Shown in pieces: positions 322 through 60,322 of a DNA stretch of 64,000 bases. Below the pieces are notes generated by a model that searched no databases, was not told the origin of the DNA, and worked only from the letters and a program-made list of their open reading frames with translations. The translations under genes were made by a program, and so were the position numbers. Numbering within the stretch: position 1 is the first letter of the stretch; each line of letters opens with the position of its first letter. Origin of the DNA: Leishmania mexicana MHOM/GT/2001/U1103 (taxonomy: Eukaryota > Euglenozoa > Kinetoplastea > Trypanosomatida > Trypanosomatidae); assembly GCF_000234665.1 (NCBI RefSeq), contig NC_018311.1:1-64000 (forward strand), in the 5' to 3' direction.

Positions 322-331
322 ACGCGGAGCA

Positions 332-365
332 GTACACCCGTACCCGTACGCGTACATGTACACGT
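332..365. repeat. Degenerate GTACNN hexamers at the telomere junction
   Basis: Ten bases after the last CCCTAA unit, GTAC occurs at 332, 340, 346, 352 and 358, with GTAG at 364. From 340 on the spacing is exactly six bases, the telomere period. The block is made of nested palindromes. Leishmania telomere-associated DNA is known to hold conserved sequence blocks; I cannot say from memory whether this is one of them. Confidence 0.6.
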
Positions 366-13549: not shown

Positions 13550-14053
13550 CCCCCGCCACCCTCCCTGCCGAATGCCGAGCCACTACTGGTGGTGCCGGCG
13601 TCAAGTGCCTACAACGTGGGCGAGTCAGCGCGAGTCATCGCTGCGGATGTCGGCGGGCGGGCCCTGGACGGCGTGGGCGTCGGGGCGAGCTGCGGCAGTG
13701 AGCGTGTTTGTGGGTATCATCGGATAGGCAAAAAGTGTCCGCGTGACACGAGCGCATGCCACCCAACCCCCGCACCGCCTGCTGGTGTGGGGCGCCTGCG
13801 AGCCACCTCCCGAGAGGGGAGGAGGATGCACCACGTTGCGGCCTGCCTGATGGGGGAGCGGCTGTGCGGCGCCCTACGAGGTGCGGGGTGGGTGGGCAGA
13901 GTTTGAGGGCAGGGGCCGTCCTCGGGTGACTGGGTCGGCGCACTGCCGTGACGCGTGTCTACCAGTGCCTCGCACCACGCGGATGGGGCCCGTAACAGGG
14001 TCGGCGGTGGAGCGGCGTTGGACCTCACGCTGTGTGGCAGAGAAATGGTCACG
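13550..14053 (+). mobile_element. SIDER-like short retroposon, copy 1 (5'-truncated)
   Basis: This is one of five very similar repeats in the window. It starts at a C-rich tract just before CCGAGCCACTACTGGTGG and lacks the ~60 bases seen upstream in copies 2-5, so it looks 5'-truncated, as retroposons often are. It ends in GGCAGAGAAATGGTCACG, an ending shared with copy 2. The segment GGTGGTGCCGGCGTCAAGTG resembles, as I remember it, the 5' signature shared by ingi/L1Tc retroposons and Leishmania SIDERs. There is no coding capacity. It abuts the decayed deacetylase gene directly. Confidence 0.75.
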
Positions 14054-15230
14054 TTGAAAGAAGAAAAAACTTCTACCTTTGTTGAGGGGCTAGCGAAGCT
14101 GATCTCGGGTGGCTTTACGTGGCGCAATTCGAAAGTCGTTGGCTTGGGTCACATCAGAAGTTGCTTGGAGGGTGTCGGCGTTCAGTCCAGTGGGACCATC
14201 GATGAGACGAAGCCCGAGACAAACGTTTTCGCGACGATTCCGTTGCAGAGCCGCATGCGAAAGTGCGGCATTGTGCTGAGCGGTCACTTAAACACAGTCC
14301 CGGTTGACAGGCAAAAGTAACACTCCGATTCGTTCAAGGCTGTGCCGGAGAAACGATAGTTGCTGTAGCTGCGGTGCGTGTGATGTGAAAGGGCTTTAGT
14401 GCTGTTTATATGGCGCTCGTTCCCCAGCTCAAGGTCCAGCCCGATCGGTCAGTTTACTTTGCCTTGGCGTACGACAGGGAAGTCGGCTGCCTGACAGATT
14501 GCATTCTCCCGCAGTCTGTGAAGAGCAAAGGTGTCAAGAATGATGGCTGCCTGATTGGCGAGATCACCTCCAACGAGGTGATCGTGGCGGACAAGCATAT
14601 CTGCGTGTGAGAGCTACACGTGAGAGGACGGTCGCCCACTCGTCATGCGCGGTGACGGAGGACAGCTGCAACACGATTGACTACGCCGCCAGGCTCGTCA
14701 AGGTCTACACGAATGCAGAGGGCATCGTGCAAAACGGAGAGAGCAACTGCTTCTTCAGTGCGTTGAGCACTATCATGTCGATCAATGTGATTCACGGCGG
14801 TATCGCGATAAAGACGATTCCTGTCCATTGCATTTTCAACGAGTTCTGCAACCCACCTCACATGGAACATGTAGATGGCCAAAAATGCGCTCCTGGCTAC
14901 GTCCCGAACGATCCGCTTCCGGAGATAAAGGAACACAGTGATGCTGACATAGTCATCAAAAACCTTCTCTCCGTCCGCTCGCTCCACGACGCCGAGAAGA
15001 ATGCCTTCACTGCACTGGTTCGTGTTATGATTGGTGACCGGGACACGCAGACGCTTGGTGACAACACGGAGGCTGACCAGTATGCTCTTATCGGCGTTCC
15101 TGTTATCGTCTACGGCCCTGGAAGCATCAGAGTTGCGAACCAGGAGAATGAGTTTGTCCCGAAGAAGCATGTGGATGACTGTGGGAAGAAGCGGGCCATT
15201 CACCCTACGCGCAAGAACCATGATATGTAG
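14054..15230 (+). pseudogene. Decayed acetylornithine-deacetylase-like M20 peptidase gene
   Basis: A broken metallo-aminoacylase of the ArgE/M20 family, which deacylates N-acyl amino acids with two metal ions. In order: TNVFATIPL then GIVLSGHLNTVPVD (about 14220-14310), where the family has GHTDVVPVD, so the metal-binding Asp is Asn here. A stop follows at 14318. GACDVKG at ~14370-14391 corresponds to the family's GRGTADMKG, followed by a frameshift into FSAVYMALVPQLKV. YDREVGCLTD holds the catalytic/metal Glu region (~14470). A second frameshift/stop lies near 14607. AHSSCAVTEDSCNTIDYAARL and VIHGGIAIKTIPVHCIFN follow, and finally YALIGVPVIVYGPGS and EFVPKKHVDDC. Leishmania carries an intact relative on chromosome 7, as I recall. 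Retroposon copy 1 sits exactly at its 5' end. Clearly non-functional. Confidence 0.85.
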
Positions 15231-15852
15231 TCCCACGTGTGAGCGGCCCGATAACCCCTTTGATGCGCTTTTTTTTGTTAGCTACTATCGAAGCAAAAGA
15301 AAACGTGGCGACGCTGTCGATAGCAGTGTTGTAAACAGTGCCGTGATCGCGGTGCAGTGCCACTTTCTTCAGAGCTCTGTTTCTCCTTTGCTCAACTGTA
15401 CTAATCATCTCGGACGTCGGCAATCGACACCCTGCGTTCTCTCGGCTTTGAAAAAAAGACTCTCTCTCTCTCTGGAGTTCCACAAATATTGTTCCACTCG
15501 GCAGCCTGCACACTGCGGGACTGGCTGCTTGAGGCGATGTTGCCAGCACAGAGTAGGAAAGGCCCAACATACAGGCGCCTGGAAGGCAAGCGGCCAAGTG
15601 GGGTTTACGACTGGCTCACTCTTCTCGAAAGACGATTATCGCTGTCCGTACTGTCTCTGAACCCTTTCCGTTATTCGTGTAATGGGAACATATGTTGCGC
15701 TTCTTCATCCTCCTTTCCTCTGCATTGTTGTGGTGAGGCCTCTTTCTTTTTTCTGTAGAGACCAGCCTTGCCATATTGCAGTGTTTTTTGCATAGAGGCA
15801 CACTTGGAACCCCCGCGTTTCGCTTTGCAAGCGCTGAGGTCTGACGTCAATC
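15231..15852. other. Intergenic region, no gene seen
   Basis: 622 bases. Pyrimidine tracts at 15460-15475 (CTCTCT) and 15700-15755 are the kind used for trans-splicing of the following gene. No recognisable frame. Confidence 0.5.
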
Positions 15853-16803
15853 ATGAGCATAGATGCACTTTCCCCGTTGGTTGCCTGTGCAGCACGGGCT
15901 GCCGTGAAGAACGGTGAAACAAGAACGATAGAGAGCGCCCTCGATGACCTGCAGCAGCAAATGTTTGGTGTTGAAGAATCGCACGAGGTGGCTACAGAGA
16001 TGATGTTGAAGCGCATATGTGAAACTCAGGTACTCTTAACCCAAGACTCAGCATCTGGCAAGAGCAACCTGACCACTGAGCGGCTACTGTTAGAGGCGGT
16101 GTTGACACTCGGTGAACTGCTGCTCAGCGCCGCTGCCGGGCAAAGGCTGCGCACCAAGACAGCGAAGCAGATGGAGGACGTTATTCTTCCCATCCTGTTT
16201 CTGCGTACGAGCGTGACGCCGTCGCTCCTGAAGGCGCACGCACTGAAGGTAGCGTGGTCAAGGTTCGAATGCAGCGCGAAGACTAACAATGAGGCGAGGG
16301 AGAAATTGCACCACATTTTCGTGTTGTGGTACCGCAACCATGGCTGGGACTTTGCCCGGAGCAGCGGCGACGGCGACGGCGTCGCCGTATGCATGCCCAC
16401 ACCCACGCCTCACGAAGGACCCGACAACGCAAAATCTAAGTTTGAAAATAAGCTCTCTTGCTGCTCACCGCCGGTGCATCCAATGCAGCAGCGTGAGATG
16501 CTGCGCGAGATTTCGTGGAATGGGGCAGCGCGGAAAGTCGCAGCAAGCGGCATTCCGTCCTATCTGCTCACCAAACGTAGACGGGGTGATCCCACTTATC
16601 AGTGCGACAGCCTCACCTCCACGCGCGCTGAAAGGGGAGCTCCAAACTGCTTGCCGGCTTCAGCACAGCCGCCATCACCCACAGCCACAGATAAAACCAC
16701 ATGCCAGATCAATCCAAGGATTCTCGCGTTGGACTCCCCGGTGAAGCGGCACAGACGGAATTTGACTGTTGATGTGCCGCCCTCACCCGACCGCCCAGAA
16801 TGA
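15853..16803 (+). CDS. Hypothetical protein, possible CID-like helical domain
   Basis: The 316-residue protein has no catalytic motif I can name. Residues 1-175 are predicted to be helical. The part TERLLLEAVLTLGELLLSAA then VTPSLLKAHALKVAWSRF and EKLHHIFVLWYRNHGWDF is laid out like a CID (RNA polymerase II CTD-interacting) domain, an eight-helix repeat that ends with a helix containing L-W. This is a weak resemblance. The remaining 140 residues are low-complexity, rich in Pro, Ser and basic residues, with RRRGD and PVKRHRRN stretches that could be nuclear localisation signals. If the CID idea holds it could act in 3' end processing or transcription termination; otherwise it is simply an uncharacterised trypanosomatid protein. 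It lies between the deacetylase relic and AP-2 alpha, which does not inform function. Confidence 0.7.
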   Translation: MSIDALSPLVACAARAAVKNGETRTIESALDDLQQQMFGVEESHEVATEMMLKRICETQVLLTQDSASGKSNLTTERLLLEAVLTLGELLLSAAAGQRLRTKTAKQMEDVILPILFLRTSVTPSLLKAHALKVAWSRFECSAKTNNEAREKLHHIFVLWYRNHGWDFARSSGDGDGVAVCMPTPTPHEGPDNAKSKFENKLSCCSPPVHPMQQREMLREISWNGAARKVAASGIPSYLLTKRRRGDPTYQCDSLTSTRAERGAPNCLPASAQPPSPTATDKTTCQINPRILALDSPVKRHRRNLTVDVPPSPDRPE

Positions 16804-17399
16804 GTACGAAACGAGCTCCTTCATTTGGGTAGTTCGTTGGTGTATGCTCTGTGTGAGTGCGCGCGAGCACTTTTTGCGTATCGTGCTCACAGGACTCATA
16901 GAAGTTACAAGCGGAAGAAAACAACAGAACAATAACGACAATACCTTAGCAAGTGGTTCAGCAGCACAAGTGGTCGGAAGGACGTGGCCTTCTCATGTGC
17001 TCACCTTGCTTTTAACCACCGCTGACTCTCTCGCGCGCACAGCGTCAACTTCGGAGAACAAAAAGAGCATTAGGCAACAACATAGAGGGCGGGTGTCCCC
17101 TGACACCAAAATGTGTTCCGTCTCTGCTACCTCCTGCTGCAATGTCGTCCCCCGTTGGCCGCCGTGCATTCCTGTCTGCTCTTCCTCTGTATTCTGACCT
17201 TCTCTCTCTTTGCTTGTCACCCCCTCCCGTCCGCGGCCGCTCACCTTCCAACATATCGGCACAATACCCATATCCGATTTGGTGCCGCCTCGCTCAGAGC
17301 GTAGGCTAAATCGCCGTATCGCTTCAGTCAAGTACCTCATCCTTTTCTCTTCCTGTGTTTTCTCCCCCCCCCCGCCGACGTCAACCCCCTGCTGCGAAA
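16804..17399. other. Intergenic region with polypyrimidine tracts
   Basis: 596 bases. Strong CT-rich tracts at 17195-17230 and 17340-17375 (ending in a run of ten C) precede the AP-2 alpha start. They likely guide trans-splicing and upstream polyadenylation. No gene seen. Confidence 0.5.
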
Positions 17400-20285
17400 A
17401 TGGACATGCGAGGTCTCGCCCACTTTATTCGGGACATCCGTCGTGCAACTGGAAACAAGAAGGAGGAAGAGAGTCGCGTGGATGAAGAACTCGCAAAGAT
17501 ACGCGCCAAGTTCATTCAAACTAGCACAATGACGACATACGATCGAAAGAAGTACGTGTGCAAGTTGATGTTCATCTCGATGCTCGGCTACCCCATTACC
17601 TTTGGCCATATCGAAGGCCTGAAACTCATGTCACAGGAGAGCCCGTCCGCCAAGCTCATCGGGTACCTCTCCACTTCCGTGCTGCTGAACGAAAACAGTG
17701 ATCTTCTGACGCTCACCACACACACTGTGTATCGGGACCTTCTCTCGGCATCTGACTTGAGTCGCAGTCTCGCCCTCTCAGCCGTCGCGAACACGGGAAG
17801 CCGCGATTTTGTAGAGGTGATGCACGAAGGCGTCTTTTCCATTGTCATGGATGACAGCATCAACCAGCACATCCACAAGAAGGCGCTTCTGACGCTGCTG
17901 CACATTTATCGCAAGTACCCCGAGATTGTTGATCTGAATACCGTGATTCCTAAGGCGGCAGAGCTGCTTCTATCGACACAGGACGGTGTCAGCATGTGCG
18001 CTGTGACATTTCTTAACGGCTGCATCAGCAAGGAGTCGAGGCACCTTTACAGAGGCATCCCCGAGAAGCTGATCCAGGTTTTGGCACGCATCATTCTGGA
18101 AAAGCAGACGGAGCCAGGCTACGTATACTACGGTGTTCCAGCACCATGGCTTCAGGCGAAGCTCCTGCGGCTGCTGCAGTATTTCCCGCTTCCGTCGGAG
18201 GCTGACCAGCGCAACCGCATAATCCTCGTTCTCCGAAAGGTTGTCAAGGCGACGGATAAGGTGCTGAAGGATGCGCAGGCGCAGCAGAAGCAGCGTGGCA
18301 CGCAGAGCCGCGTCAGCGCTATGAACGCGGTGCTGTTCGAGGTGGTGTCACTGTGCATCCAGTGGGATGTCGGCTCCAAGCTGATTTTGGAGTGCGTGGC
18401 CCTCATCAGCTCCTTTCTCTCCGACAAGCGGGAGTCGAATCTGCGCTACATCGGCCTTAGCTTGCTGGCCCGGCTCAGCTTTGTGGACGTCCCCGGCTTC
18501 AACTTTCAGATGCACTGCCGTCAGCACCAGCCTCAGATTATCGTTAGCCTGCACGACTCAGACGCCTCGATTCGGAAAAAGGCGCTCGATGTCCTCGTGG
18601 CTATGTGCAACCGGAGCACCGCTGACGACATCATCAAGGAACTCATCTCCTACCTCCCCATTGCCGCGGACCCCAACTTCAAGACGAGCCTCGTTCTCTC
18701 GATCGCACTTCTATCAGAGAAGTACTGCAAGGACTACAATGTGTATGTGGATATCATGCTCACCGTTGTGTCGGAGGCAGGTGATCTATGCCCGCCAGAT
18801 ATCGTGCACCGCGTCGTTCAGGTTGTCGTCAACGATCCGTCCGTGCAGAAGCGTGCGGCGAACATAGTCTTCCAGGAACTACGGAAAAAGGCAAACGTGC
18901 CAGAGGTGATGCTGCGTGTCGCTGCGTTCGTGCTCGGCGAGTTCGGCTACCAGATCGCGCTGAACACCGAGAGCACGCCGATGGTGCAGCTCAACCTCCT
19001 GACACAGAAGCTGAGCTTCACCTCGGTGGTCACGCAGAGCATCATCATCAGTACATTTTCCAAGTTCTACACGCTCTATGACGACGTTGCGGTGCGCGAG
19101 CGCATTGTGAAGACGCTGCAGGCGTACACCAACAGCCCGCACCCGGAGTTGCAGCAGCGTGCAACAGAGTTCATTGCACTGCTGGAGTTTGCGCGGAGTG
19201 AACTGCTAGAGAAGGTCTTCGAGCCCATGCCACCTTTCCGAGACGATGTGAGCACTGTCATGAACCAGGTGAAGAGGTTGCAGAGCAGTGTGCAGGACAT
19301 TTGGGCCCTGAAGATTCTCGAGCGCGGCGTGGAGGGTGTGAGCCACACGGGCAAGCGCAAGCCTAAGTCGGAGTCCGCCGATAAACAGAAGGACCAGGCA
19401 AAGCGAGGAATCTCACTGAACGATCCCTCGTCTGTGTCGACGGCAGTCCCTCTGCAAGGTGACAACACCGACCAGGCCTACGCGGAGCTTGACGCCTTGC
19501 TCGACGTGTCCCTCCCTTCCCAGGATGTGGATCGTGCTCGCAGCGTCTACGAAGAGCACCGCCGCCGCCTCTTCGAGCTTTCGCGCGCTGACAAGGGCGT
19601 GCTCTTCTCGAACGAGTCGATCGAGCTTCAGTGTACCAAGTCAACGTACGGGGCGGACAGTCGGATGACGGTGGTGGTGCGTGACAAGACAGGCGAGGGT
19701 CTCGTGCAGGTGGCAGTGGAGGTCATCCGTGCCGAGGCGGGGCTCATTGTGCAGTCGCGCACAAAAGACGGGACCACTGTGGCACCTTGGGGCACAATCA
19801 CAATCGAGTTTGCCGCCCGCTCATGCTTTGCCTTTAGAAGCCCGCCGAGTGTGCGAATGCAGTACGCGCCGGCGTCCGACAGCGCGCGCGTGTGCACCGA
19901 CGTTCTGTCACTGCCAATCCTTCCCACGACTTTCTTCACCCCATACCAGGTAGACTCGGACGCCAACTTTAGTCGGCTGTATGAAACAACAAAGCAGGCA
20001 TCGACCTTCGCCGGCTGGCGCAAGGCGGCGTCGCCTTCGCGGAGGGTAGATGTCAACGCACTCATCCAGCTGCTCGAGCTACAAGGATACCGGACCAAAA
20101 TGACTGGATCGGGCACCATCGTTGGCGTCGCCGCGTTCGCGGTGCAGCCGAAGGAGCGCGTCGAGTACGTACCTGTCGTGTGCGAGATACAGACATCCGC
20201 AAGTGAAATGCAGGTGTTTGTGTACACCGAGGAATCGGTGCTTCAGCATGGTGCCCTGGACACAGTGGAGTTCTCCCTACAATAG
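17400..20285 (+). CDS. AP2A: AP-2 complex subunit alpha (alpha-adaptin)
   Basis: The 961-residue protein begins MDMRGLAHFIRDIRRA, close to the alpha-adaptin start (MRGL-VFI-DIR). YDRKKYVCKLMFISMLGYP, GHIEGLKLMSQE and KLIGYLSTSVLLNEN follow, the core of the alpha trunk. Residues ~1-620 are the helical-repeat trunk, ~630-720 a charged hinge (SADKQKDQAKRG), and ~735-961 the ear/appendage, so all three modules are present at near-normal length. In AP-2, alpha binds PIP2, dileucine cargo and, through the ear, accessory proteins during clathrin-mediated endocytosis. In trypanosomatids this happens at the flagellar pocket. Trypanosoma brucei has lost AP-2 while Leishmania keeps it. I start at 17400 rather than the upstream in-frame non-ATG frame because the family N-terminus begins here. 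Confidence 0.93.
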   Translation: MDMRGLAHFIRDIRRATGNKKEEESRVDEELAKIRAKFIQTSTMTTYDRKKYVCKLMFISMLGYPITFGHIEGLKLMSQESPSAKLIGYLSTSVLLNENSDLLTLTTHTVYRDLLSASDLSRSLALSAVANTGSRDFVEVMHEGVFSIVMDDSINQHIHKKALLTLLHIYRKYPEIVDLNTVIPKAAELLLSTQDGVSMCAVTFLNGCISKESRHLYRGIPEKLIQVLARIILEKQTEPGYVYYGVPAPWLQAKLLRLLQYFPLPSEADQRNRIILVLRKVVKATDKVLKDAQAQQKQRGTQSRVSAMNAVLFEVVSLCIQWDVGSKLILECVALISSFLSDKRESNLRYIGLSLLARLSFVDVPGFNFQMHCRQHQPQIIVSLHDSDASIRKKALDVLVAMCNRSTADDIIKELISYLPIAADPNFKTSLVLSIALLSEKYCKDYNVYVDIMLTVVSEAGDLCPPDIVHRVVQVVVNDPSVQKRAANIVFQELRKKANVPEVMLRVAAFVLGEFGYQIALNTESTPMVQLNLLTQKLSFTSVVTQSIIISTFSKFYTLYDDVAVRERIVKTLQAYTNSPHPELQQRATEFIALLEFARSELLEKVFEPMPPFRDDVSTVMNQVKRLQSSVQDIWALKILERGVEGVSHTGKRKPKSESADKQKDQAKRGISLNDPSSVSTAVPLQGDNTDQAYAELDALLDVSLPSQDVDRARSVYEEHRRRLFELSRADKGVLFSNESIELQCTKSTYGADSRMTVVVRDKTGEGLVQVAVEVIRAEAGLIVQSRTKDGTTVAPWGTITIEFAARSCFAFRSPPSVRMQYAPASDSARVCTDVLSLPILPTTFFTPYQVDSDANFSRLYETTKQASTFAGWRKAASPSRRVDVNALIQLLELQGYRTKMTGSGTIVGVAAFAVQPKERVEYVPVVCEIQTSASEMQVFVYTEESVLQHGALDTVEFSLQ

Positions 20286-20816
20286 ACATCGCCCCCGCCC
20301 CGCCCCCCCCACCCCCTCTCCGATACACAGAGAGACAAGCATGAAGAGTGCTGGCAGAAAACGTTATAAAACGAAAGGCGTCGCTGTCTCTTCTTCTCGG
20401 CTGCCTCTCCCAGTGGGTGTTTGTCTCCTCTTTTCACTTTTCTTTGTCGAATGTCGTCTGGGATGCTCGTCGCCCCTCGCCTGTGGTTTCTGCCCTCTGT
20501 CGCTTGTCGGCGCTTTTCGTTGTTTTGTTGCCGGATGTGGTGAGCTTCACAATGCTGCTGCGCGTTGTCTTTCATCATGGTCGCTTTGCGGAGTTGTCTT
20601 GCGCGTCTCTTTTGTTTTTCGACGTGCGTTCCAGCTTGTTTTCTTGGAAGGGGAGCACGGCAGCGGCGGCTGCGATAGCGGCGCAACGCGCCTGACGCGG
20701 GCGTGCAAGGGCACACGCACTCAGCCCGAGTCGATCTTTTTCGCCGTCGTTGGGACACGTCAACAAAGAAGCCCCAGGGTGTGATTTGATTGCTTTGTGC
20801 GAGTCCAACCGCTGCG
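20286..20816. other. AP-2 alpha 3' flank
   Basis: 531 bases between the AP-2 alpha stop and repeat copy 2. A C-run follows the stop (20297-20325), then T/C-rich DNA. The repeat therefore lies in or just beyond the likely 3' UTR. No gene seen. Confidence 0.5.
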
Positions 20817-40250: not shown

Positions 40251-40679
40251 GTCTCTGGGCCGAGCTGCACAACGACTGGTTGTCGCTGCCGGAGCGACTT
40301 TTAGTTCTTCTGAGCGCCACACGCACAGGCAGACGCCCCTTTTCTCGTCTTCGCGTTGCGCCCTTCCCCCTCCTTCCCCGGACCTCCTCTTCCTCAGAGA
40401 TGGTGTGGGTGTTGCTCTTGTCTGTGTGTGCGTGTATGTGTGTTATGGCTGCTGACTGACGCTTCACCGCCGTCACCGTAGTACCTTCCTCTCCCAGTCT
40501 GTTCAACCCTCACTTACTCGCCGTCACTCGCACCAGCTGCGCTTGCTGCAGCGACGCAGCTCTCTCTCTCTGTGGCTGCACGTACGTGTCACGGTCCCAT
40601 CACCCCCATCAACGGCACTCCTCCTCCACCCTCGACAGCCACGCACACAAGCCACTGCTCCTCTCTCTCTCTGGGATTG
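40251..40679. other. Upstream region of the MICU-like gene
   Basis: 429 bases, C/T-rich at 40370-40400 and with a CTCTCTCTCT run at 40561-40570. No gene seen. Confidence 0.45.
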
Positions 40680-50109: not shown

Positions 50110-50827
50110 CGGTGGGGATGACGACGACGAGTCGCTGCTGAGTGCGCCCTCTCCACACCGCACCGTCAACGCCGTGGCAGGAAGTCGTACGAGGATGCAC
50201 TGCTTCACAAGCCCATCGAGGAGAAAGCGGTGGAGCGAAAGGCAGCGCCACTGCATGCGTGAGAGTCCCCCGTTGCGCGCATGCGGTGGCGGGTGATGTA
50301 GGAGCTGTGGGGTGGCCGCAACACTGGCGGCGGTTGTCTGGTCAGGTGCGATATGGAAAGTAAACAAAGCGAAGAAAAGTCGCGAGGCAGCGCTCAGGGG
50401 CGCTGTCTGGCGGGTGTGTAGAAACACAGCGGGGGGCAGACATACTGGTTCACTCACACCTCCACGCACGTGAGGAACAGAGAGTCCGCGTGTGTGTCCG
50501 CTACGTCCTTCCCAGGTCGTCGTAGGGTGTAGAGAAGGCGGCAACGGGTGCGGCCGCTTCATACGAATGGGAAGATCAGCAACAGCAAAGCACCCGGCTC
50601 ACATCTATGCATGCTGTGCCGGAATCTGTATCTGCATCAAGGAAAGGGGAGGACCACAGCGGGTACGCGCACGTTCTATCGATCTACACGAGCGCGCGGT
50701 CACACGCTCTCAACCCCTCTCTGCGCCCAATCAGCACCTCTTCTCTCTCTCACGCGTCTTCGTTCTTCCCACATCTGTTACGGTTCTCCTCCCCTGGCCG
50801 CTCACGAGAAGCGCATACAAGCTTTGT
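50110..50827. other. Intergenic region between Sec7 and thiouridylase genes
   Basis: 718 bases. CTCTCTCTCAC at 50740-50760 and TTCTCCTCCCC at 50792 are likely splice-guiding tracts for the next gene. No gene recognised. Confidence 0.5.
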
Positions 50828-52639
50828 ATGAGTGTGGCCACGACGCGCTCGCAGCTGCGCATCGCCATCGGCCTCTCCGGCGGTGTCGACAGCGCCGTCA
50901 CCGCCCTCGTGCTGCAACGTTGTGTTCACACCACACTCGACGTCGCTGCGCTTCACTGCTTTGGCGGTCCACACGCTCCACCTCCGCCACTGCCCGCACT
51001 ACAAGCGGCGGTTGACGCACACGTACCGCTCCACAAGTTGCTCGGCAAGCTAGTCACCGCAGGCGGACCGGGCATTGCGACTGCAGGCTACGCTGCTGTT
51101 CCTGTGCAGTACACCCCATTTTTCATGCGAAACTGGCACGATGACAACACGGCCTCTGGATGGTGTGTGCGAGCCCAGGTCGACTACGACGATGCGCAGC
51201 AGGTGGCAAGGGCGCTAGACCTCCTTCCGCACGACGGCACGCCTCTGCCGTTGTACGACTTCTCCAGCGAGTACGTTGAACAGTGCTTTGAGCGCATGCT
51301 CGCTGCCTACGCCGTAGGCCACACGCTCAACGTGGACGTGCTGTGCAACAGTAAGATCAAATTTGGCGCCCTGACGCGTGCGCTGCGTCGCACGAGATCG
51401 GTGTTCAGTGAAACACTCCTCGCCACCGGTCACTACGCACGCACGTGGCACCTTCCGCGCGGTGTCCACAGTGGTGAGGATGCTAAGAGACGACCGGTGC
51501 TGCTCGTGCGGCCGTGCTCTGCGGGGCGGGACCTCAACGATCAGACCGTCTTTCTATCCCGGGTGCCGCCATCTGCCCTGGCCAGGGCAATTTTCCCTCT
51601 CGGGCACCTCTTCACCTGCAAGGCGGATGTGCGTGCACTGGCGAGGCACAGCTTCGGGCACGGCAGTGGCACGGCAGCGGTGGCGAGCTCAGATGGGGCG
51701 CCGCAGCGTTCGGTGGCGCACATCTCCCAAAAGAAGACCAGCACGGGTATCTGCTTCGTCGGACCGCCCTCCGCTGCCGCGTGCGCCGGCGATACATCGT
51801 CTAGCTCGCGCTTCCCTCCCTTCTTGAACGAGTACCTCCCGCCCCCGCCACCGCCACCCTTGTCATCGACCCGTACGGTGTTCTGCGACGCGGTGACGGG
51901 GGAAGAGCTGTTCGTGCCTGAAGACACAGCTAAGCACTTCTCCAGCGCGCCATCGCAGTCCATCGCGTGCCCTCTACGTCGTCGTCCCACGCTTGGTGCC
52001 CTCCGGGCAGACTACCCGGGCCTCCTGCCAGCCTACGCCTTTACTCTCGGCCAGCGTGTGCGTCTCTGCCGCCGCACTGTTGGCGGGCGAGTGCGCGAGG
52101 CGGCCTACTACGTTGCTGACAAGGTGCTGGCACCTCTGCCGTCGTCAGCGTTGAGTGACAACAAAACCGTGCCTGTACGTCTGCTGGCAGAGGTGCGGGT
52201 GGTTGCCCAATGGAACAACGCGCTGCTGTACACCTCTCAAGCTACGGTCGAGTCGCTGCACTGGTGGCTACCCCCACCAGTGCTGCATCAGCGCGCTGTG
52301 GCCTACCATGAACGTAGCGTGTATGAACTGCGGTGTCATTGCTGCACGCGACACCAAGAAGCGCTGCAACCAGCAACAGTGGAGTGGGAAGCAGCGGACG
52401 AAGAGCTCAGCGCGGATGCGGAGGTGCGCGTTCGGCGTGCTCGCGTACACTTCAATGCTCCTCTTCGCACCGTTACGCCCGGGCAGGCGCTCGTGGCATA
52501 CATGCCCCTCTTGGAGCTCGAAGAAGGGTGGAAGAAGGGCCGTGACGCCTCTCGCGGTGATGCGGAACCGTCGCCGCCTGAGGCAATGGCTGTGATCGGG
52601 TCTGGCTGGATTGTGTCGCCTGACTCCCCGCCGCCTTGA
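50828..52639 (+). CDS. MTO2: tRNA-specific 2-thiouridylase (MnmA/MTO2/TRMU)
   Basis: The 603-residue mitochondrial enzyme replaces O2 of the wobble uridine in certain tRNAs by sulfur. The PP-loop IGLSGGVDSAVTALVL is at residues 13-28. The first catalytic Cys is C173 in VDVLCNSKIKFGAL (family: N-D-LCN--IKF). TGHYAR follows. DLNDQTVFLSRVP matches the family's D-KDQ-YFL. FPLGHLFTCKADVRALA is at ~255-271. The second catalytic Cys is C309 in KKTSTGICFVG (family KK-STGICFIG). FTLGQRVRL is present at ~405. Both cysteines and the P-loop are intact. It is ~200 residues longer than bacterial MnmA, through inserts after the P-loop (Pro-rich), between the two Cys motifs and in the C-terminal half. I start at 50828 (MSVATTRSQL). 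A short basic N-terminus could target mitochondria. Confidence 0.93.
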   Translation: MSVATTRSQLRIAIGLSGGVDSAVTALVLQRCVHTTLDVAALHCFGGPHAPPPPLPALQAAVDAHVPLHKLLGKLVTAGGPGIATAGYAAVPVQYTPFFMRNWHDDNTASGWCVRAQVDYDDAQQVARALDLLPHDGTPLPLYDFSSEYVEQCFERMLAAYAVGHTLNVDVLCNSKIKFGALTRALRRTRSVFSETLLATGHYARTWHLPRGVHSGEDAKRRPVLLVRPCSAGRDLNDQTVFLSRVPPSALARAIFPLGHLFTCKADVRALARHSFGHGSGTAAVASSDGAPQRSVAHISQKKTSTGICFVGPPSAAACAGDTSSSSRFPPFLNEYLPPPPPPPLSSTRTVFCDAVTGEELFVPEDTAKHFSSAPSQSIACPLRRRPTLGALRADYPGLLPAYAFTLGQRVRLCRRTVGGRVREAAYYVADKVLAPLPSSALSDNKTVPVRLLAEVRVVAQWNNALLYTSQATVESLHWWLPPPVLHQRAVAYHERSVYELRCHCCTRHQEALQPATVEWEAADEELSADAEVRVRRARVHFNAPLRTVTPGQALVAYMPLLELEEGWKKGRDASRGDAEPSPPEAMAVIGSGWIVSPDSPPP

Positions 52640-53184
52640 GGACTCTCTCCCTCTGCTGACGGTCTAACCCCCCCTCTCTCCTCTCCGGCCCAACGGTGCG
52701 CGCCACGCCTGCAGATGACGGCTCTGTCGTCGTTTCGTCGCTTGTCTTCGTGCCGTGTTGGCCTCTTCACAGAACCTGTCGTCGTCTCCTCATGCGGCCG
52801 CCCGGTGCGACGTCGAAGCTGCCGCCCCTCTTCTCCTCCTAAGAGAGTGGCTGGGAGAGAGGAGAACGGCGCGGTGGCATGTGTCGGCGCCTTCGCTGTC
52901 ACTGCCCAATCCATCTCTCTGCGTCCACACGACCACCAGCAACCCCACCCCCTCCATCAGTCGATCCCCACTCATCTTGCACTGTCCAGCCTTCGTCCGC
53001 CCTTACCACCCTGTCCTACCTTTCCTTGGTGCGCGCTTGCACGTGAGCGAGAGAGCGCGCTGCTGACGCGTGCAGCCACACACGCATACCACTGCATATA
53101 CCTTTCTTCTTTCATGAGCCCTTCGTGGCGCTCTCTAGAGACCCGCCCTCCCCCCGTGCTCGAGTGCGTCTGTGCGCTACCCCA
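52640..53184. other. Intergenic region, no gene seen
   Basis: 545 bases. The open frame above 53185 (from 53125, GTG-like) is upstream leader. C/T-rich patches at 52660-52690 and 52920-53020 are probable splice-guiding tracts. Confidence 0.5.
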
Positions 53185-54243
53185 ATGCTGCTCTCTTCAC
53201 CGGTGGCGCGTGCAGCGCAGAAGGCTCCGGTGACCGCGGGCCTATTGGTGTTCATGTGCCTCATACTGCTGTTGAGCTCTTCCAAAGATTTGACGTGCAT
53301 GCACAGTGTCCTCTACGAGCTGTTTCCGTGGCGATTCATCACGTACCCGCTTGCGGTGACGATGCGGCAGCCCTTGCGTATCGCCGTGAACACCGCTGTT
53401 ATCCTCGCCGGGGCGTCTGCTGAAGCAGCCACAGGCAGCAGCGAGTACGCCACCTTCCTGCTCTGCACCACCGTGGCGACAGGCGCGCTGGTGCTCCTCA
53501 CAGACCTCGTCATCTTCCATCCGCTACGGCTCACTGTTTGGGGCGGCAACGACAGCCACAACCGGCCATACGGCTACACTGGCATGTGGCCGGTGGCGGA
53601 GGTAGTCGGGTTCTCTCTGTGCCGCGTGCGGGGGGTGTCGGCGTTGGTCGGTCCGCGACTGCGCTGCGGTCAGCTGACGCTCCAACGAGTCCCACTCGCC
53701 TTTGTTTGGGCCGCCTTCGGGTGTGACGTGGTCTCGCTGGTGATGGGCCACAGTGCTGAGAACTATTATGAGCACCGTGAAGGTTGGCAGGTTATGGTGG
53801 CGGGCATCGCCTTGCTTGTGAGCTGGCTATACGAACGTCGCGTCACCGGAGCTTCGAACAGTGCCTTCGCCTTAGAAGCCTTCATGTATCCGGACCCGCT
53901 CAGGGATGGCGCGCGCTGGGTTTGCGGACGCTTGCAGAGGCGGCTGCAAGCGTCACCACTGCGCTTTCTACTTCCACCGGAGGGAGGAGTCGGTGGTGGG
54001 GCGGCAGCACTGCCCACGCCGTTGTTCACCCGCGCCGCAATAGGCAACACCTTTCCTGGCAGCGCAAGCACCGCGGCAGCGACGACGACCACGGCGCTAC
54101 TGCCCGGTACAACCGCAGAGGAGGCGGAAAGGCACCGCCTCATCGCACGAGAGGCCCTCGCCCGCCGACTTCAGCAGCAGCAGCAAAGCGCGTCTGCGTC
54201 ATCCGCTGCGGAGGTGGCGGACTCGGCGGCGAAAACAGCATAG
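53185..54243 (+). CDS. Multi-pass membrane protein, TMEM115/rhomboid-like
   Basis: The 352-residue protein has about five or six hydrophobic segments in its first 230 residues: APVTAGLLVFMCLILLL (~14-30), FITYPLAVTM (~52-61), IAVNTAVILAGA (~65-76), LCTTVATGALVLLTDLVIF (~94-112), VPLAFVWAAFGCDVVSLVMG (~172-191) and VMVAGIALLVSWLY (~205-218). The order TAGLL/membrane, PWRFITYPL, then an acidic/His luminal loop is like TMEM115 and the wider rhomboid-like superfamily (P-W---T--F). No serine protease GXSX motif or His partner is visible, so it would be a pseudoprotease-type fold. TMEM115 acts in Golgi retrograde traffic. The C-terminal 120 residues are soluble, Ala/Thr-rich and end in a Gln run. 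I use ATG 53185; an earlier non-ATG frame continues upstream. Confidence 0.7.
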   Translation: MLLSSPVARAAQKAPVTAGLLVFMCLILLLSSSKDLTCMHSVLYELFPWRFITYPLAVTMRQPLRIAVNTAVILAGASAEAATGSSEYATFLLCTTVATGALVLLTDLVIFHPLRLTVWGGNDSHNRPYGYTGMWPVAEVVGFSLCRVRGVSALVGPRLRCGQLTLQRVPLAFVWAAFGCDVVSLVMGHSAENYYEHREGWQVMVAGIALLVSWLYERRVTGASNSAFALEAFMYPDPLRDGARWVCGRLQRRLQASPLRFLLPPEGGVGGGAAALPTPLFTRAAIGNTFPGSASTAAATTTTALLPGTTAEEAERHRLIAREALARRLQQQQQSASASSAAEVADSAAKTA

Positions 54244-54895
54244 CGGCCCGTGACTACACAGCGACGTTGTTTGGCTGGATGGGGAGGGAAGAGGTGGAGG
54301 CGCCGATAGCGGTGGCAATGTCGGGCACCTTTACGTGGTGTACCTTCTCTCACGGTAGAACGCGCCTAGAGCTGTGGCGCCTCCCCTTCCCTCCTGCCCT
54401 CCCCCCTTCTCCATCTTCTCCCGAAACCCGTGACGCTCCCACCGACCGTTTCCTTCGCTCTGCGTGAAGTCGACAGAACCGCTGAGCCGGTCCTCCTCCT
54501 CCCCCCCGCCCCAAATCCTTCACTGCGCCGGCTGCCATGCGCCTTAATTTTACTTGTGTGGCTGTCGTTCCTGCGAGCCAACAATGCACGCCTTCTGCCG
54601 TCGTCCCCGAGTGGGAGGTGACACCTTGGTAGCGTAGCACGACGCACATGCACTCAAGCCACCATCCCTCTCCCCCTCCTTGTCATTCTACGAGTCGGAA
54701 GGTTCGCACACGCGCGCCTGCTGTGCGGGTGCCCGGACTTGTTGCTGCTTTAGAGAGCAGGCGCACAGCGTGGCTTCCCTTCGGCCTCGACACACCAAGC
54801 GAGCAAGACGTGGAGAGACACACACGCGGAGAAGCGCGGTGCGACCACCGCCACAATTCATCGGTACAAACCTCACCACATATCGAGGGCTAAGC
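54244..54895. other. Intergenic region, no gene seen
   Basis: 652 bases. C/T tracts at 54380-54425 and 54500-54520. The frame open upstream of 54896 contains no family sequence. Confidence 0.5.
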
Positions 54896-56686
54896 ATGAA
54901 GTGGGACTGGGGTGCTCTGCGGCGGCAGACGCTGGAGTTGTTGTACGGTGCCACCGCCCAGCAGCGGCACCATCAGTCGCAGCACCGAGATCAGAAGCAG
55001 GCGTACGAGGCTTTCATGGCGATGTCTGCCAGCGCCGCTGGTGAGCCGCATCGCAGTGGGGGCAGCGCGGCTCCTAGCTCTTCCCCGCCTGCCCCTGGAA
55101 GGCGGCACCGCGACCGCGGATACGCTGCTGTCCGCAGACGCTTCCAGCGCATCCCAGATATGTTCCTCGACATGGAGTTTTACTTCGCCATCACCGGCCT
55201 GGGCCTCTTCGACCACCTCGTCGGGCTGCTGCTGCTGCCGCTGAAGGTGCTGACACAGTGGCGACGGTGCGAACTACGGGACATCATTACACTGTTTGTG
55301 CTCACCATGACACTGGGTAGCTACTGGGTTGCGAGCCTGGCGACGACCCAGCTGTACTCCTACCTCTACCACGCCGTGCGACGCACGTCGTTCATCAAGG
55401 TCGTCATGATCTTCAGCATCCTCGATGTGGCGGACAAGATCCTCTCATCCCTCTCGCAGGATTCGCTCGAGGTGCTCTACGCCGCCGTAGACGATGAGTA
55501 CGCCTACCGCTGCGCTCGCCGCCGCCAGGCCAACCCAGCTGCGGCAGGCACACGGACGAAGAGGGCTGCTTTTGGGAGTGCGTGTGCAGGTCGCGACGAC
55601 GCTGGATCCGCCACCGTCCGCCAGCACACGCCTCCATCGCGGTGGCTCCTCGCCGGCAGCGCGATCGCCGCCTGCATCAGCACCTCCTGTCACTCCCTCT
55701 CTCTCCTGCTGCACGTCGTCACGCTGAACGTCACGATAAACGCGGAGGGCAACTCGTTGCTGGCGCTGCTGGTGGGCAACAACTTCACGGAGCTGAAGAG
55801 CGTCGTGTTCAAGAAGAGCACGCCGGAGTCGCTGCACAGCGTGTGCGCCCTCGACGCGCTGGAGCGCATGCAGTACGTTGTTGTCTTCTTTGTGCTGCTG
55901 CTGCACCACATGCACGAGCGCTTCACCGACTTCGCCGTTGCAGACATCTTCGTCATCCTCTGCGTCGAGGTGGCCATCGACTTTGTCAAGCATCTCTTCG
56001 TCTTCCGCTTCAACGACATTCCGCCTTCAATGTTCCGGGCCTACTCCCAGCTGGCGCTGCTGGACTTGAGCTGCGAAACAGCTCTTTGGCGGCTGCCGTC
56101 GCTGGAGGTGGTGGCGAGCGGGTCCGGCAGCGGCGTCGCAACGCACATGGAAGAAGCGGCCGAGCTGCTCACGCCTGCTTTCGGCTTTGCCCCCAAGAAT
56201 GTCAAGCGGAACGGCTTCGACGCCATCGCGTATGCGGCGCTGCTGCTGTGGAGCTGCGAGCGAGTGGCGGGTTACCTCCTGTGGCAAGCGCCTCTGGTGT
56301 GCGTCTTGCTCGTGCTGATCCTCGCTCTTCTGAAGCTCATGCTGTCCAGTATCGTCCACGGGATGTGCGCGCGCTTCACCCTCCGGACGTTGGTGGTGTC
56401 CCCACCGTCGTGGCCGCCGCTGCCACAGCCCAGCGCGACTCTGACGAGCTCGCTGGCCTCCACGTGGGGTGTTCGGATGGGTGTCTCGCCGATCAGCACG
56501 CCGCGCGCGACGCCCATGGGCGGCAGCCGCCACTTACAGATCACTGCGGCGACGTCTCCCTCTGTGAACGGCAAGAGTGGTCCAGTAGCAGTGCGCACGT
56601 TGGTGCGGCTGACGCCGCTTCTACTGGCTCTGCTGAAGGCAGATCGCTTCGACCTACAGGCTGGCAAGGCGAAGCGCACCTACTGA
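54896..56686 (+). CDS. TAPT1-family membrane protein (DUF747)
   Basis: The 596-residue multi-pass protein matches the TAPT1/EMP65 family of ER membrane proteins. The family core is clear: RRTSFIKVVMIFSILDVADK, then ILSSLSQDSLEVLYAAV (~165-200). TAPT1 has R-S-IKLYVIFN-LEVADKL-SSFGQDILD there. MEFYFAITGLGLFDHLVGLL (~92-111) precedes it. After a charged insert (~205-245), helices continue with LLHVVTLNVTINAEGNSLLA then LLVGNNFTELKSVVFKK (~280-310), ERMQYVVVFFVLLLHHMHER (~325-344) and FVILCVEVAIDFVKHLFVFRF (~353-373), all family-typical. Another membrane pair lies at ~445-500. The C-terminus is Ser/Thr/Pro-rich. In animals TAPT1 is tied to ciliogenesis and in yeast EMP65 to ER protein stability; the flagellated parasite's use is unknown. 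It is the last intact gene of the plus-strand run. Confidence 0.88.
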   Translation: MKWDWGALRRQTLELLYGATAQQRHHQSQHRDQKQAYEAFMAMSASAAGEPHRSGGSAAPSSSPPAPGRRHRDRGYAAVRRRFQRIPDMFLDMEFYFAITGLGLFDHLVGLLLLPLKVLTQWRRCELRDIITLFVLTMTLGSYWVASLATTQLYSYLYHAVRRTSFIKVVMIFSILDVADKILSSLSQDSLEVLYAAVDDEYAYRCARRRQANPAAAGTRTKRAAFGSACAGRDDAGSATVRQHTPPSRWLLAGSAIAACISTSCHSLSLLLHVVTLNVTINAEGNSLLALLVGNNFTELKSVVFKKSTPESLHSVCALDALERMQYVVVFFVLLLHHMHERFTDFAVADIFVILCVEVAIDFVKHLFVFRFNDIPPSMFRAYSQLALLDLSCETALWRLPSLEVVASGSGSGVATHMEEAAELLTPAFGFAPKNVKRNGFDAIAYAALLLWSCERVAGYLLWQAPLVCVLLVLILALLKLMLSSIVHGMCARFTLRTLVVSPPSWPPLPQPSATLTSSLASTWGVRMGVSPISTPRATPMGGSRHLQITAATSPSVNGKSGPVAVRTLVRLTPLLLALLKADRFDLQAGKAKRTY

Positions 56687-56749
56687 TGTCATACCCGCAT
56701 CTGTCGTTCTGTGGGTGGGTGGCCGTGTGTGCCCCGTGCGCGTAGGCCG

Positions 56750-57605
56750 GCACAGCGCGCCCCTCCACTCCCCCTCCCTCTCCCCCCGCACTGTTCCCCC
56801 TGTCTCAGCCGCCGTTCTCGTCGAACGAAATCGCGGCATCCACCGCGCTGGTGGGCATGCCCTTAACACCCTGGCACCAGGTCCGAGGCGCATCTGCTTT
56901 TGTGCTGAGCGCGGGCACCGTCCATCACGTGAATGGTGCGCAGCTCATTCACCTCCCGGAGATGTGGGAGGTACTTTTCCTGAGAGCCTTCCGCATCAAC
57001 GCCTGGACACCGGTCCTGTCCGGCAAGGGAGCAACCCCGCTGAACATCCTCAGCCACATCTTCGGAGACGCAAACCCGGCCGCCGCACCCGCAACGGTGT
57101 TCGACTATGACGCCGACGCAGGAAGCCACACCGTCTTGCTCCCTTTAGCAATCTCCTGCACGGCGGTGATGCAGGAGCTGTAGAGCGCAGCGCATCGAAA
57201 CGGACCTCACCCGACACGGCGCCAACGCCTCAGCGGCGGCGGCGGCGAGCAGCACGTCTTGTGCCGCATCAAGACACGTCACCAAACCGTCGCAGAGGTG
57301 CAGCTCTCCACTGCCTCCGCCGGGACAGTGATGCGAAAGACTCGGAAACTTTCCGGCGGTGCTGGCGCCGTACCTGACCCACGTTATCAACTGCGGCTAC
57401 GTGGGGGACGTGCCGCGAGACAGTCCCCATCGAGGAGTGGGCGGCTCGCGTTGGTGCGCGACTGGAAGCGCTGCCGAACAGCATCGTCAAGTACATCGAA
57501 GGACAATCGATGTCGAGAGTTCGGAGGGGGAGCAGGCTGCTGCCCATGTTAATAACTCCCCCTGTGCCTGTATATGCGTCGCTGCGCACGAACAGCTGAA
57601 TGTCT
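56750..57605 (+). pseudogene. Decayed plus-strand gene at the end of the run, unrecognised
   Basis: Coding-like text is spread over several frames. Frame one is open through 56851-57183 (IAASTALVGMPLTPWHQV, HHVNGAQLIHLPEMWEVLF, then SGKGATPLNILSHIFGDANP), ending in a stop at 57181. Then FPAVLAPYLTHVINCGYVGD occurs at ~57350-57410 in another frame. VPIEEWAARVGARLEALPNS and IVKYIEGQSMSRVRRG, then RLLPMLITPPVPVYASL, occur at ~57425-57595 in a third. The segments are well-composed protein sequence and line up in order, so this reads as a frameshifted gene. I do not recognise the family. It borders the convergent strand switch, where decay would be less constrained by co-transcribed neighbours. 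Confidence 0.5.
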
Positions 57606-58444
57606 GTTAGCCCCTTTCTATTTCGTGAACTGTCGAGGCTCGCTTGCCCATCCCACAGCACGCGCGCCGGCTATCCATCGCAACAGTGAAGAGCCAACTA
57701 GGTGTGTGAACTCATGTAAGTGGGTCGTCGTGGCAGCCCTGCTTCTCTCCCGCTCTCCGCCACCCCTTGTACGCCACACACACACACACACGCACAGACC
57801 ACTCCTCTCCAATCTTGCGTCCGTCGTGCCCCGTACACACCTGCCTATCCCACGCTTTCTCTCGCACCTGCCCACCTCAAAACTCCATGCTGCCTCCGTC
57901 TGCCAACGCCCTGTGAACCATCTGCGTCGCCCGCGTCCAGCCATCACACGACGGCGCCACGCAAGCACCACGAGCACTGTCGTGGCCTGGAGCACGCTAC
58001 GCGCACGCACTCAGTGATCCTCTTTCGGTTATCTTGATCTGTATGCATCATCATTGGTCAGCAAGTCTCCGAGTGCAGGGCTGGCACCCCACACCCCTCT
58101 GCCTGCTGGGTCTTGACGAGATCCACTGGGGCTGTCAGGTCCAGCGTCTTCTGCAAGTGTTGGTGCTTCTTGCCCTCGTGCAGTGGCTCGCCGGACTTGA
58201 TGGGGTACCTCCGTCTCGCCTGCAACGTGGGCAAGCCGTCGGTAGGGACACCCATGCGGGTGTGGGCAGGCCCGCGAACATGCCAGAGGGCCGCCCCATG
58301 GCGCGGCACGTGACGTGGGCAGTGGGGACGTGCTCTTGCATGTCTACACGCACGTCTGTCTCCGTGTGTCTGTCTGGGCATGCGTGCGTGTGTCTTGCTT
58401 CTCCTTCCAGGTTTTTCGTTGTTGGCTCATGACGAGAGGCGGCG
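57606..58444. other. Convergent strand-switch region, left part
   Basis: Between the plus-strand run and the minus-strand kinase. A CA run lies at 57776-57792. A minus-strand frame at 58058-58381 (MGVPTDGLPTLQARRRYPI and KTLDLTAPVDLVKTQQAEG) is coding-like and may be the remnant of a minus-strand gene, not recognised. In Leishmania, convergent regions are transcription termination zones enriched in base J. I looked for tRNA B-box sequences (GGTTCGA) here and saw none. Confidence 0.5.
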
Positions 58445-59024
58445 CGCACACACGCACCTCCGCCCGCGGCATCTCAAGGCCCCGGTGTGTCCAGACTCGG
58501 GTCTGGATGGATGCCGAGCAGCCCCCCCTCCCCGCCAAATGCCGAGCCACTACTGGTGGTGCCGGCGTCAAGTGCCTACGACGTGGGCGAGTCAGCGCGA
58601 GTCATCGCTGCGGATGTCGGCGGGCGGGCCCTGGACGGCGTGGGCGTCGGGGCGAGCTGCGGCAGTGAGCGTGTTTGTGGGTATCATCGGATAGGCAAAA
58701 AGTGTCCGCGTGACTCGTGCGCATGCCACCCAACCCCCGCACCGCCTGCTGGTGTGGGGCGCCTGCGAGCCACCCCCCGAGAGGGGAGGAGGATGCACCA
58801 CGTTGCGGCCTGCCTGATGGGGGAGCGGCTGTGCGGCGCCCTACGAGGTGCGGGATGGGTGGGCAGAGTTTGAGGGCAGGGGCCGTCCTCGGGTGACTGG
58901 GTCGGCGCACTGCCGTGACGCGTGTCTACCAGTGCCTCGCACCACGCGGATGGGGCCCGTGACAGGGTCGGCGGTGGAGCGGCGTTGGACCTCACGCTGT
59001 GCGGCAGAGAAACAGGGCACACTG
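58445..59024 (+). mobile_element. SIDER-like short retroposon, copy 4 (left arm of inverted pair)
   Basis: A 580-base plus-strand copy, starting CGCACACACGCACCTCCGCC and ending GAGAAACAGGGCACACTG. It shares with copy 5 several variants that copies 1-3 lack: CTACGACGTG for CTACAACGTG, GGGATGGGTG for GGGGTGGGTG, CACCTCCGCCCGCGG near the start, and the ACAGGGCACACTG tail. It is therefore the sister of copy 5. Confidence 0.85.
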
Positions 59025-59527
59025 GTGAGCATGGTTTGCATGCGGCCACCCCTTCACTAGCGCGCTCGCGCAGAGGGGCCTGGGGCGGGGGCGCCACCGT
59101 GACGGGCCTGCCAGGGCCCCGAACGCGCAGGGTTGGGGCTGGCCTCATGGCGCCGGGGAGGGCCGGGCTGGCCCCTGCCGAGGAAGGCGCGGCGGCGAAA
59201 CGACGGAGGACAGAAGTGTGGAGGCAAGGAAAGCCGCGGCGGCAGGCGCATCACCACCGCGGCCGCGCATGACCGCGACATCACCCGATGGCCTCGAAGA
59301 TGAAGCGCGCTCAGGCGCTCGCGGCGCAATGGGCCAGCGGCGGGACATCACTGCGACGCCTTTCGCATTGGCGCGCTGCACGGCGTGTGGCGGAACGACA
59401 AGGAGTGCTGCGTGGAGCGTCCCAACGCACAGTCGGCGTTGAGCGCGCGCCGCTCCTCGCCTCGGTGGTTAAAGATGACTCGTCGCTTTCTGGAGGAAGA
59501 GAGGGAAAACATGTTCTCTGATGTTAT
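59025..59527. other. Spacer of the inverted repeat, possible gene fragment
   Basis: GC-rich, 503 bases. On the plus strand about 59340-59525 a frame reads HCDAFRIGALHGVWRNDKEC then SALSARRSSPRWLKMTRRFL and EEERENMFSDVI. The pattern (RR-, many Arg, then EEE--NM--DV) recalls the C-terminus of complex I subunit NDUFA13/GRIM-19, but only weakly. It may be a stranded 3' end of a gene. Nothing else is recognised. Confidence 0.3.
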
Positions 59528-60107
59528 CAGTGTGCCCTGTTTCTCTGCCGCACAGCGTGAGGTCCAACGCCGCGCCACCGCCGACCCTGTCACGGGCCCC
59601 ATCCGCGTGGTGCGAGGCACTGGTAGACACGCGTCACGGCAGTGCGCCGACCCAGTCACCCGAGGACGGCCCCTGCCCTCAAACTCTGCCCACCCATCCC
59701 GCACCTCGTAGGGCGCCGCACAGCCGCTCCCCCATCAGGCAGGCCGCAACGTGGTGCATCCTCCTCCCCTCTCGGGGGGTGGCTCGCAGGCGCCCCACAC
59801 CAGCAGGCGGTGCGGGGGTTGGGTGGCATGCGCTCGAGTCACGCGGACACTTTTTGCCTATCCGATGATACCCACAAACACGCTCACTGCCGCAGCTCGC
59901 CCCGACGCCCACGCCGTCCAGGGCCCGCCCGCCGACATCCGCAGCGATGACTCGCGCTGACTCGCCCACGTCGTAGGCACTTGACACCGGCACCACCAGT
60001 AGTGGCTCGGCATTTGGCGGGGAGGGGGGGCTGCTCGGCATCCATCCAGACCCGAGTCTGGACACACCGGAGCCTTGAGATGCCGCGGGCGGAGGTGCGT
60101 GTGTGCG
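59528..60107 (-). mobile_element. SIDER-like short retroposon, copy 5 (right arm of inverted pair)
   Basis: A 580-base minus-strand copy, nearly identical to copy 4 in inverted orientation. Differences I noticed include GGTGTC versus GGCGTC, GACTCGAGCG versus GACTCGTGCG, and one base in GGCGGTGGAGCGGCG. It is sense to the NEK-like kinase gene and lies ~215 bases beyond its stop, so probably in its 3' UTR, where SIDERs usually act on mRNA stability. Confidence 0.85.
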
Positions 60108-60322
60108 TGTGTGTGTGCCCTCCCTCTCCAACGTCCTCAGCAGAGGAGGGGGATGTGTGGAGTCAACGAAGAGAAAACGGTACGAAAACTCATGCGCACG
60201 TGTGGTATGATACATTAACTTCGCCGTGCGCATCCTCAGCCACGGGAGCAACTCCCATGAGAGGGCGGCCTGGAGCGCATGGCTGTGCCTACTCCCGGCC
60301 CTCTCTCTCTCGCTCGTCTCGC

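Follow-up and report, generated by a model that had tools for sequence, protein, structure and literature searches.

Near-identical SIDER2 elements on one Leishmania mexicana contig: likely old copies kept alike by local gene conversion

According to the literature, SIDER2 elements are short, non-coding and derived from ingi/L1Tc-type retroposons that have died out; a role in mRNA decay and defined cleavage sites have been reported for them (PMC5509151). Published SIDER2 subfamilies are about 0.55 kb long, G+C-rich, mostly in sense orientation and arranged in adjoining groups of at least 85% identity (PMC2424063; PMC11520807). The set described here shares these traits, in another species and on another contig. 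In L. infantum, 88.4% of 311 SIDER2 clusters are confined to one chromosome (PMC11520807), and 13 subfamilies are described for chromosome 32 (PMC2424063). Reis Ferreira 2024 suggests ancient copy-and-paste insertion for the local clusters (PMC11520807).

Two further systems are close. RAGs (Ubeda 2014, PMC4028189) are same-chromosome repeats more than 85% alike, 200–2500 nt long, both direct and inverted; 67.9% of those in L. major are SIDERs. They were described for the formation of circular and linear amplicons, and our set, which falls within the same limits of likeness, length and placement, is compared with them by sequence alone. RS1–RS3 of the L. major M210/M230 amplicons are SIDER2-like, 98% alike and lie in one chromosomal region (PMC2424063), much as our copies do. 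Their inverted pairs stand close to recombination points; ours includes an inverted pair too. Smith 2009 states that SIDERs still forge genomes by homologous recombination, meaning rearrangement (PMC2689281), and single-strand annealing between such repeats in Leishmania declines with distance, reaching 77 kb (PMC6706467). The word "conversion" is absent from the main texts of PMC2424063 and PMC11520807, and a search of open-licence PMC literature showed no paper proposing gene conversion for SIDER2 clusters. The SIDER2 family and its pattern of local clusters are already known; the observation made here is genuine.

The window, meaning the whole stretch of DNA analysed, is the first 64,000 nucleotides of one contig (NC_018311.1; C7 below). 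A sequence-only reading had picked out five near-identical repeats in it, and all five were found where it placed them, the last on the minus strand (Table 1). Copies 1, 2, 4 and 5 are 96.9–99.3% identical in pairs (BLASTN, 490–580 bases). Copy 3 (27895) scored 87.1–89.7% against the other four, with 44–63 gap positions (BLASTN), the result of a missing 44-nt block and an extended pyrimidine tract. Once that deletion is set aside, the five are about 97–99% alike. Identity between copies 4 and 5 continues for about a dozen bases outside the profile match on both sides; no alignable flanks were found outside the elements among the C7 copies. The list of five was correct as far as it went and incomplete, for the contig holds three more. 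By profile starts, the full set is 13551+, 20819+, 27897+, 58457+, 59541-, 101943-, 160912- and 186545-, and its 28 pairs are 90.7–99.4% identical with gaps excluded. The standard 5' end is absent from 13551 and 101943. Copies 160912 and 186545 resemble the rest in their 5' part and have no recognisable SIDER2 3' end. Another element on the contig, C7:201649, lies 15 kb from 186545 and is just 63.5% alike. SIDER2s are described as having two 79-bp retroposon signatures at the 5' end; the 20-mer that the earlier reading called signature-like matches exactly in three of the five and has a single-base difference in the other two.

Table 1. Repeats in the window and subfamily A elements on contig C31 with their published L. 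infantum chromosome 32 counterparts
Feature	Position	Strand	Details
SIDER2 copy 1	13551..14053	+	5'-shortened, profile positions 69-549; DOT1-like ORF upstream, sense
SIDER2 copy 2	20817..21392	+	full length; adaptin-like ORF upstream, cytochrome c1 downstream
SIDER2 copy 3	27895..28430	+	44-nt internal deletion; methionine synthase ORF downstream
SIDER2 copy 4	58445..59024	+	left arm of 580-nt inverted repeat, convergent strand-switch region
Spacer between inverted copies 4 and 5	59025..59527	.	503 nt
SIDER2 copy 5	59528..60107	-	right arm, 99% complementary to copy 4; sense, downstream of minus-strand protein kinase ORF
Subfamily A	C31:13526	-	L. infantum 18439r
Subfamily A	C31:25553	-	L. 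infantum 30662r
Subfamily A	C31:34518	+	L. infantum 39696d
Subfamily A	C31:41160	-	L. infantum 46425r
Subfamily A	C31:67082	+	L. infantum 72349d
Subfamily A	C31:79229	-	L. infantum 84516r
Subfamily A	C31:115554	-	L. infantum 121058r
Subfamily A	C31:122149	-	L. infantum 127617r

The five repeats are SIDER2 elements, ordinary remnants of long-dead retroposons. The family link suggested earlier is supported by length, G+C content, orientation, subfamily likeness and the homologues on contig C31 that stand at published positions. The profile has 549 positions (SIDER2, about 550 bp), and G+C is 64–70% by segment across 86 elements (SIDER2, about 66%), with 59.5% in the window. Judged by the ORFs, the C7 cluster lies in sense in 3' spacers or putative UTRs, and its members share at least 85% identity, as local subfamilies do. 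An A-rich 3' end is a SIDER2 trait; the copies here end only in short AAAGAAA or AGAAA, and A runs are reported for roughly 28% of the elements on L. infantum chromosome 32 (PMC2424063). The text anchor for the published cleavage site was absent from most of the elements compared across clusters.

Between 10.4 and 56.7 kb the ORFs of C7 are on the plus strand, and between 60.3 and about 204 kb they are mainly on the minus strand; all eight copies share the orientation of the ORFs that prevail around them (mechanical ORFs of at least 200 aa). Copies 4 and 5 oppose each other over their 503-nt spacer inside the convergent strand switch. Pfam named neighbouring ORFs as Isy1-like, DOT1-like, adaptin, cytochrome c1, methionine synthase and protein kinase; since these are mutually unrelated, the locus is not a duplicated gene array. 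Rfam found no HDV-like ribozyme in the window or, with permissive limits, in locus L002; a single match was at chance level.

In the 32,032,822-base genome, the best match outside the set, among 40 scored of 438 first-look candidates, was a 78% fragment at 352 kb of C7 itself, and the main matches on other contigs in the same sample were 67–77% alike. Forty-one elements included local same-contig clusters about 89–100% alike on C7, C8, C16, C18, C20, C25, C30 and C31. Their 726 different-contig pairs averaged 67.7%, and each of the seven above 77% involved unplaced C389 or C509 and C30. With 86 elements, the 179 within-cluster pairs averaged 95.1% (minimum 71.5%, the clusters being loosely drawn). 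The 3468 between-cluster pairs averaged 68.2%, with a 99th percentile of 75.1% and a maximum of 86.3% between two C16 groups; 8 of 3476 pairs were dropped for too few columns. Over 2960 between-contig pairs, divergence in the centre of the element averaged 31.1% and was never below 20.0%. The C7 cluster is typical, because publications from 2008 onwards describe similar SIDER2s as grouped locally (Requena; Reis Ferreira 2024). The copies had been called far too similar, which holds only when they are compared with those of other contigs; several of those contigs hold equally tight clusters. The same reading had named, as a finding that would count against it, a genome of 60–75% copies with only these five alike and sharing flanks. 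Copies in different clusters do stand at about 60–75% identity, but the alike copies have no common flanks.

Likeness decays with distance along a contig. Mean centre divergence was 1.7% for pairs less than 10 kb apart (n = 20) and, through successive distance classes up to 200 kb, 4.1% (n = 36), 6.0% (n = 63), 9.6% (n = 54) and, at 100–200 kb, 21.4% (n = 56), figures that lean towards homogenised pairs because clusters were partly picked by agreeing motifs. It was 31.0% at 200–500 kb (n = 67) and 27.8% beyond 500 kb (n = 57), next to the 31.1% between contigs. Opposite-strand pairs were no less alike than direct ones. Just 18 of 353 same-contig pairs had a centre divergence of 5–20%.

A genome search with the 20-mer gave 515 hits in total and 14 in a reversed-pattern control. 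One hundred places with at most one mismatch were listed and 96 of them used, leaving out three on unplaced C97, C452 and C517 and a lone one on C28. Among these 96 listed places, all 37 neighbours within 20 kb carried an identical 20-mer (shuffle mean 2.7), as did 60 of 63 within 50 kb and, on opposite strands within 50 kb, 14 of 14. When the variants were coded as letters and single-place contigs excluded, the listed places on 14 contigs formed unbroken blocks: 31 runs, equal to the minimum of 31, against 53.4 after shuffling.

Copies in a cluster are most alike in the middle. Within 16 clusters, mean divergence per 60-column bin was U-shaped, at 11.5, 5.4, 3.6, 2.8, 1.7, 1.7, 1.5, 3.4 and 11.5% (15 or 16 clusters with data in each bin); between clusters, the same bins gave 37, 31, 33, 29, 33, 30, 30, 27 and 38%. 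An edge excess was present in 57 of the 135 same-contig pairs with centre divergence below 5% (Fisher p < 1e-4). It was strongest for C31:714169 against 741678, with 0/299 differences in the centre and 42/116 at the edge. In the C31G cluster, the last 129 profile columns differ at 30–53 of about 118 per pair and the centre at 0–3/299; in C31A, the figures are 0–43/121 and 0–7. The diverged ends are genuine SIDER2 ends: all four C31G 3' ends match a 3' SIDER2 model built without contig C31 (E 4e-9 to 2e-17). The reverse arrangement is seen for C8:213723, which differs from 276086 at 72/195 columns in the 5' part and 1/240 in the 3' part, and resembles its siblings in the 3' part only. Old homologous ends on a young centre are produced neither by fresh insertion nor by block duplication.

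The C7 set itself gave fainter signals. None of its 17 testable pairs showed an edge excess at p < 1e-4, the best case being 20819 against 59541 (edge 9/128, centre 2/349, p 1.9e-4). In the four-gamete test, 6 of 15 pairs of informative sites conflict, a count that is suggestive only (simulated P 0.009–0.16; 0.018–0.27 conditioned on six informative sites). A PHI-type test, in which C7 was entered as two overlapping sets, gave P 0.99 with eight copies and 0.60 with six, and P 0.98 and 0.75 for C27a and C27b. It was significant in two of the six testable alignments, C31G (P 0.0005) and C31A (P 0.01); six other clusters were too small or too poor in sites for it.

The age of the sites could be read from published synteny. 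We infer from the numbering that C31 is the older chromosome 32, and synteny bears this out. The sizes of C8 (1.67 Mb) and C20 (3.34 Mb) agree with the chromosome fusions of L. mexicana, whose chromosome 20 is about 3.3 Mb (PMC4612428). All 14 counted C31 elements (eight of subfamily A, two of B, four of G) stand at published L. infantum chromosome 32 SIDER2 places and agree in order, strand and spacing; for subfamily A, order and strands are the same and spacings near-equal (Table 1). This covers three of 13 lettered subfamilies, with C31 elements 761692- and 1117586- outside the count. The published orthologues show the positions occupied in L. major chromosome 32 as well, and L. mexicana and L. 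major split about 16 million years ago (PMC4612428). The claim that such copies are too similar to be old therefore fails on these 14 elements. The insertions are probably old, as this synteny supports for three C31 clusters and as we infer for C7; no published SIDER2 coordinates for chromosome 7 were found in the texts consulted.

Orthologous A, B and G elements of L. infantum and L. major are 69–87% identical (PMC2424063). The L. mexicana paralogues on C31, a comparison within one species set beside one between two others, average 93.2% (A), 99.4% (B) and 89.8% (G), and their centres are nearly identical. For example, C31:115554 and 122149 are 99% alike in L. mexicana, while the L. infantum elements at these places share 76 and 74% identity with their L. 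major orthologues (PMC2424063). In gapped BLAST, six of seven subfamily A siblings were just 83–89% identical to the query copy.

We therefore think it very likely that these are old SIDER2 copies homogenised by continuing local gene conversion, so that they look young at positions that are probably old. Ongoing conversion between copies of the same chromosome had been one of two causes offered at the outset, and the edge and centre pattern, the decay with distance and the old C31 sites support it. It is well supported for several clusters of the genome and likely for C7. Copies within about 100–150 kb on one chromosome would overwrite each other repeatedly through short conversion events that leave the flanks in place, equally for direct and inverted pairs. 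The middle of the element would be converted more readily than the ends, and conversion would fade with distance. Recombination depends on similarity, so conversion would go on within a group whose members remain alike. Judging by the gap between low and high divergence values, a copy drifting past about 15–20% would drop out and decay to the background of about 31%. RAD51-type strand invasion during break repair is our guess for the enzymes.

The other cause offered, recent mobilisation, is unlikely. If an active element had recently been copied into nearby sites, the unrelated flanks and variable 5' starts would be accounted for, and target-site duplication vestiges are published for 18.9% of L. 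major SIDER2s (PMC2323293). Flanking matches here were slightly longer than in mispaired controls (mean 8.32 against 7.77, sd 1.11), and the two ends of copy 5 agree over 10 bases with one mismatch; both may be compatible with old target duplications. However, there was no enrichment of duplications of 11–19 bp, since only one of 31 full-length elements had a flanking match of at least 11, against 2.3% of 310 mispaired controls. The absence of any copy above 78% outside the cluster (in the 40 scored candidates), the old ends fused to young centres and the C31 positions common to several species also speak against recent local retroposition, which we regard as improbable. A search for Pfam RVT_1 gave one match of 24.7 bits, below cut-off and containing a stop. 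This uncalibrated search, probably of low power for ingi-type enzymes, is weak evidence because L. major is reported to have 52 degenerate elements (PMC3916237).

Collapsed or miscopied repeats in the assembly are still less probable. Unplaced C389 and C509 hold C30-like copies, so some repeats were left unresolved, but the C7 copies are each distinguished by SNPs, indels and flanks of their own, the sole N run in C7:1-264000 is at 245291-245390, and the same grouping is published for L. infantum, L. major and L. braziliensis, whose genomes were assembled separately. Duplication of segments or tandem units that carried the repeats along would fit copies grouped on one contig, and has hardly any probability left given unalignable flanks, unrelated neighbours, copies on both strands and paralogous genes for just 4.2% of SIDER2-containing transcripts (Reis Ferreira 2024, PMC11520807). 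Equally implausible is RNA-level selection preserving likeness with no exchange between copies, for which the role in mRNA decay and the defined cleavage sites speak (PMC5509151): likeness tracks distance, and the centre is not fixed by selection, because it differs by 31% between contigs. We rejected duplication, selection alone and assembly error for these reasons.

Likeness among SIDER2s has been taken to indicate age and movement. If it is set by local gene conversion, per-element ages are wrong; "clusters" would be recombination neighbourhoods and not insertion bursts. The 3' UTR decay signals of unrelated adjacent genes would evolve together, and the supply of near-identical repeats for the known genome rearrangements of Leishmania would be accounted for. 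More tentatively, and with the odds somewhat against it, SIDER2 groups could be homogenisation domains of about 100–150 kb, with free recombination inside and hardly any outside. Such domains would hold a record, spanning millions of years, of the distance over which a broken Leishmania chromosome seeks homology. A threshold of likeness would make groups lock together or fall apart, and a change in one 3' UTR decay element would be passed on to neighbouring, unrelated genes.

The homogenised group of SIDER2 copies on contig NC_018311.1 (C7) stops abruptly: the SIDER2 element at 201649 is only 63.5% alike to the last cluster member, 186545. A divergent strand switch lies close to this element, at about 204–207 kb.

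Both distal copies of the cluster (160912 and 186545) have CATCCC before the AATGC motif. When the copies bearing the AATGC anchor were compared, the other four on C7 had CTCCCC at the corresponding place. Cl1, a published decay-cleavage site of SIDER2 (PMC5509151), is an AU between UCCCC motifs in the same part of the element, and the variant spot may coincide with it, though this would be a guess.

The Pfam search for the reverse-transcriptase domain (RVT_1) detected a sole, sub-threshold stretch, which is possibly a DIRE remnant. The open frame passing through SIDER2 copy 5 is most likely a chance product of G+C-rich DNA. The beginning of the contig carries a 12-base tandem array.

Locations of the features discussed
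Feature	Location	Strand	Detail
SIDER2 outside homogenised group	C7:201649-202172	-	15 kb from last cluster member (186545)
RVT_1-like stretch (L060)	G000 (L. mexicana assembly):C31:193077-193523	+	24.7 bits, under cut-off; 1 stop
221-aa open frame	window 59679-60344	-	
CTCCCC/AATGC anchor regions, window copies	about 20885-20905, 27965-27993, 58518-58535, 60018-60035		
12-base tandem array	window 4-387		~20 in-register copies

Across 86 elements of the L. mexicana assembly, G+C was 69.6% in the homogenised centre (profile positions 240–420) and about 64% at the ends (0–60 and 480–549). A G+C-richer centre is the pattern that GC-biased conversion would give.
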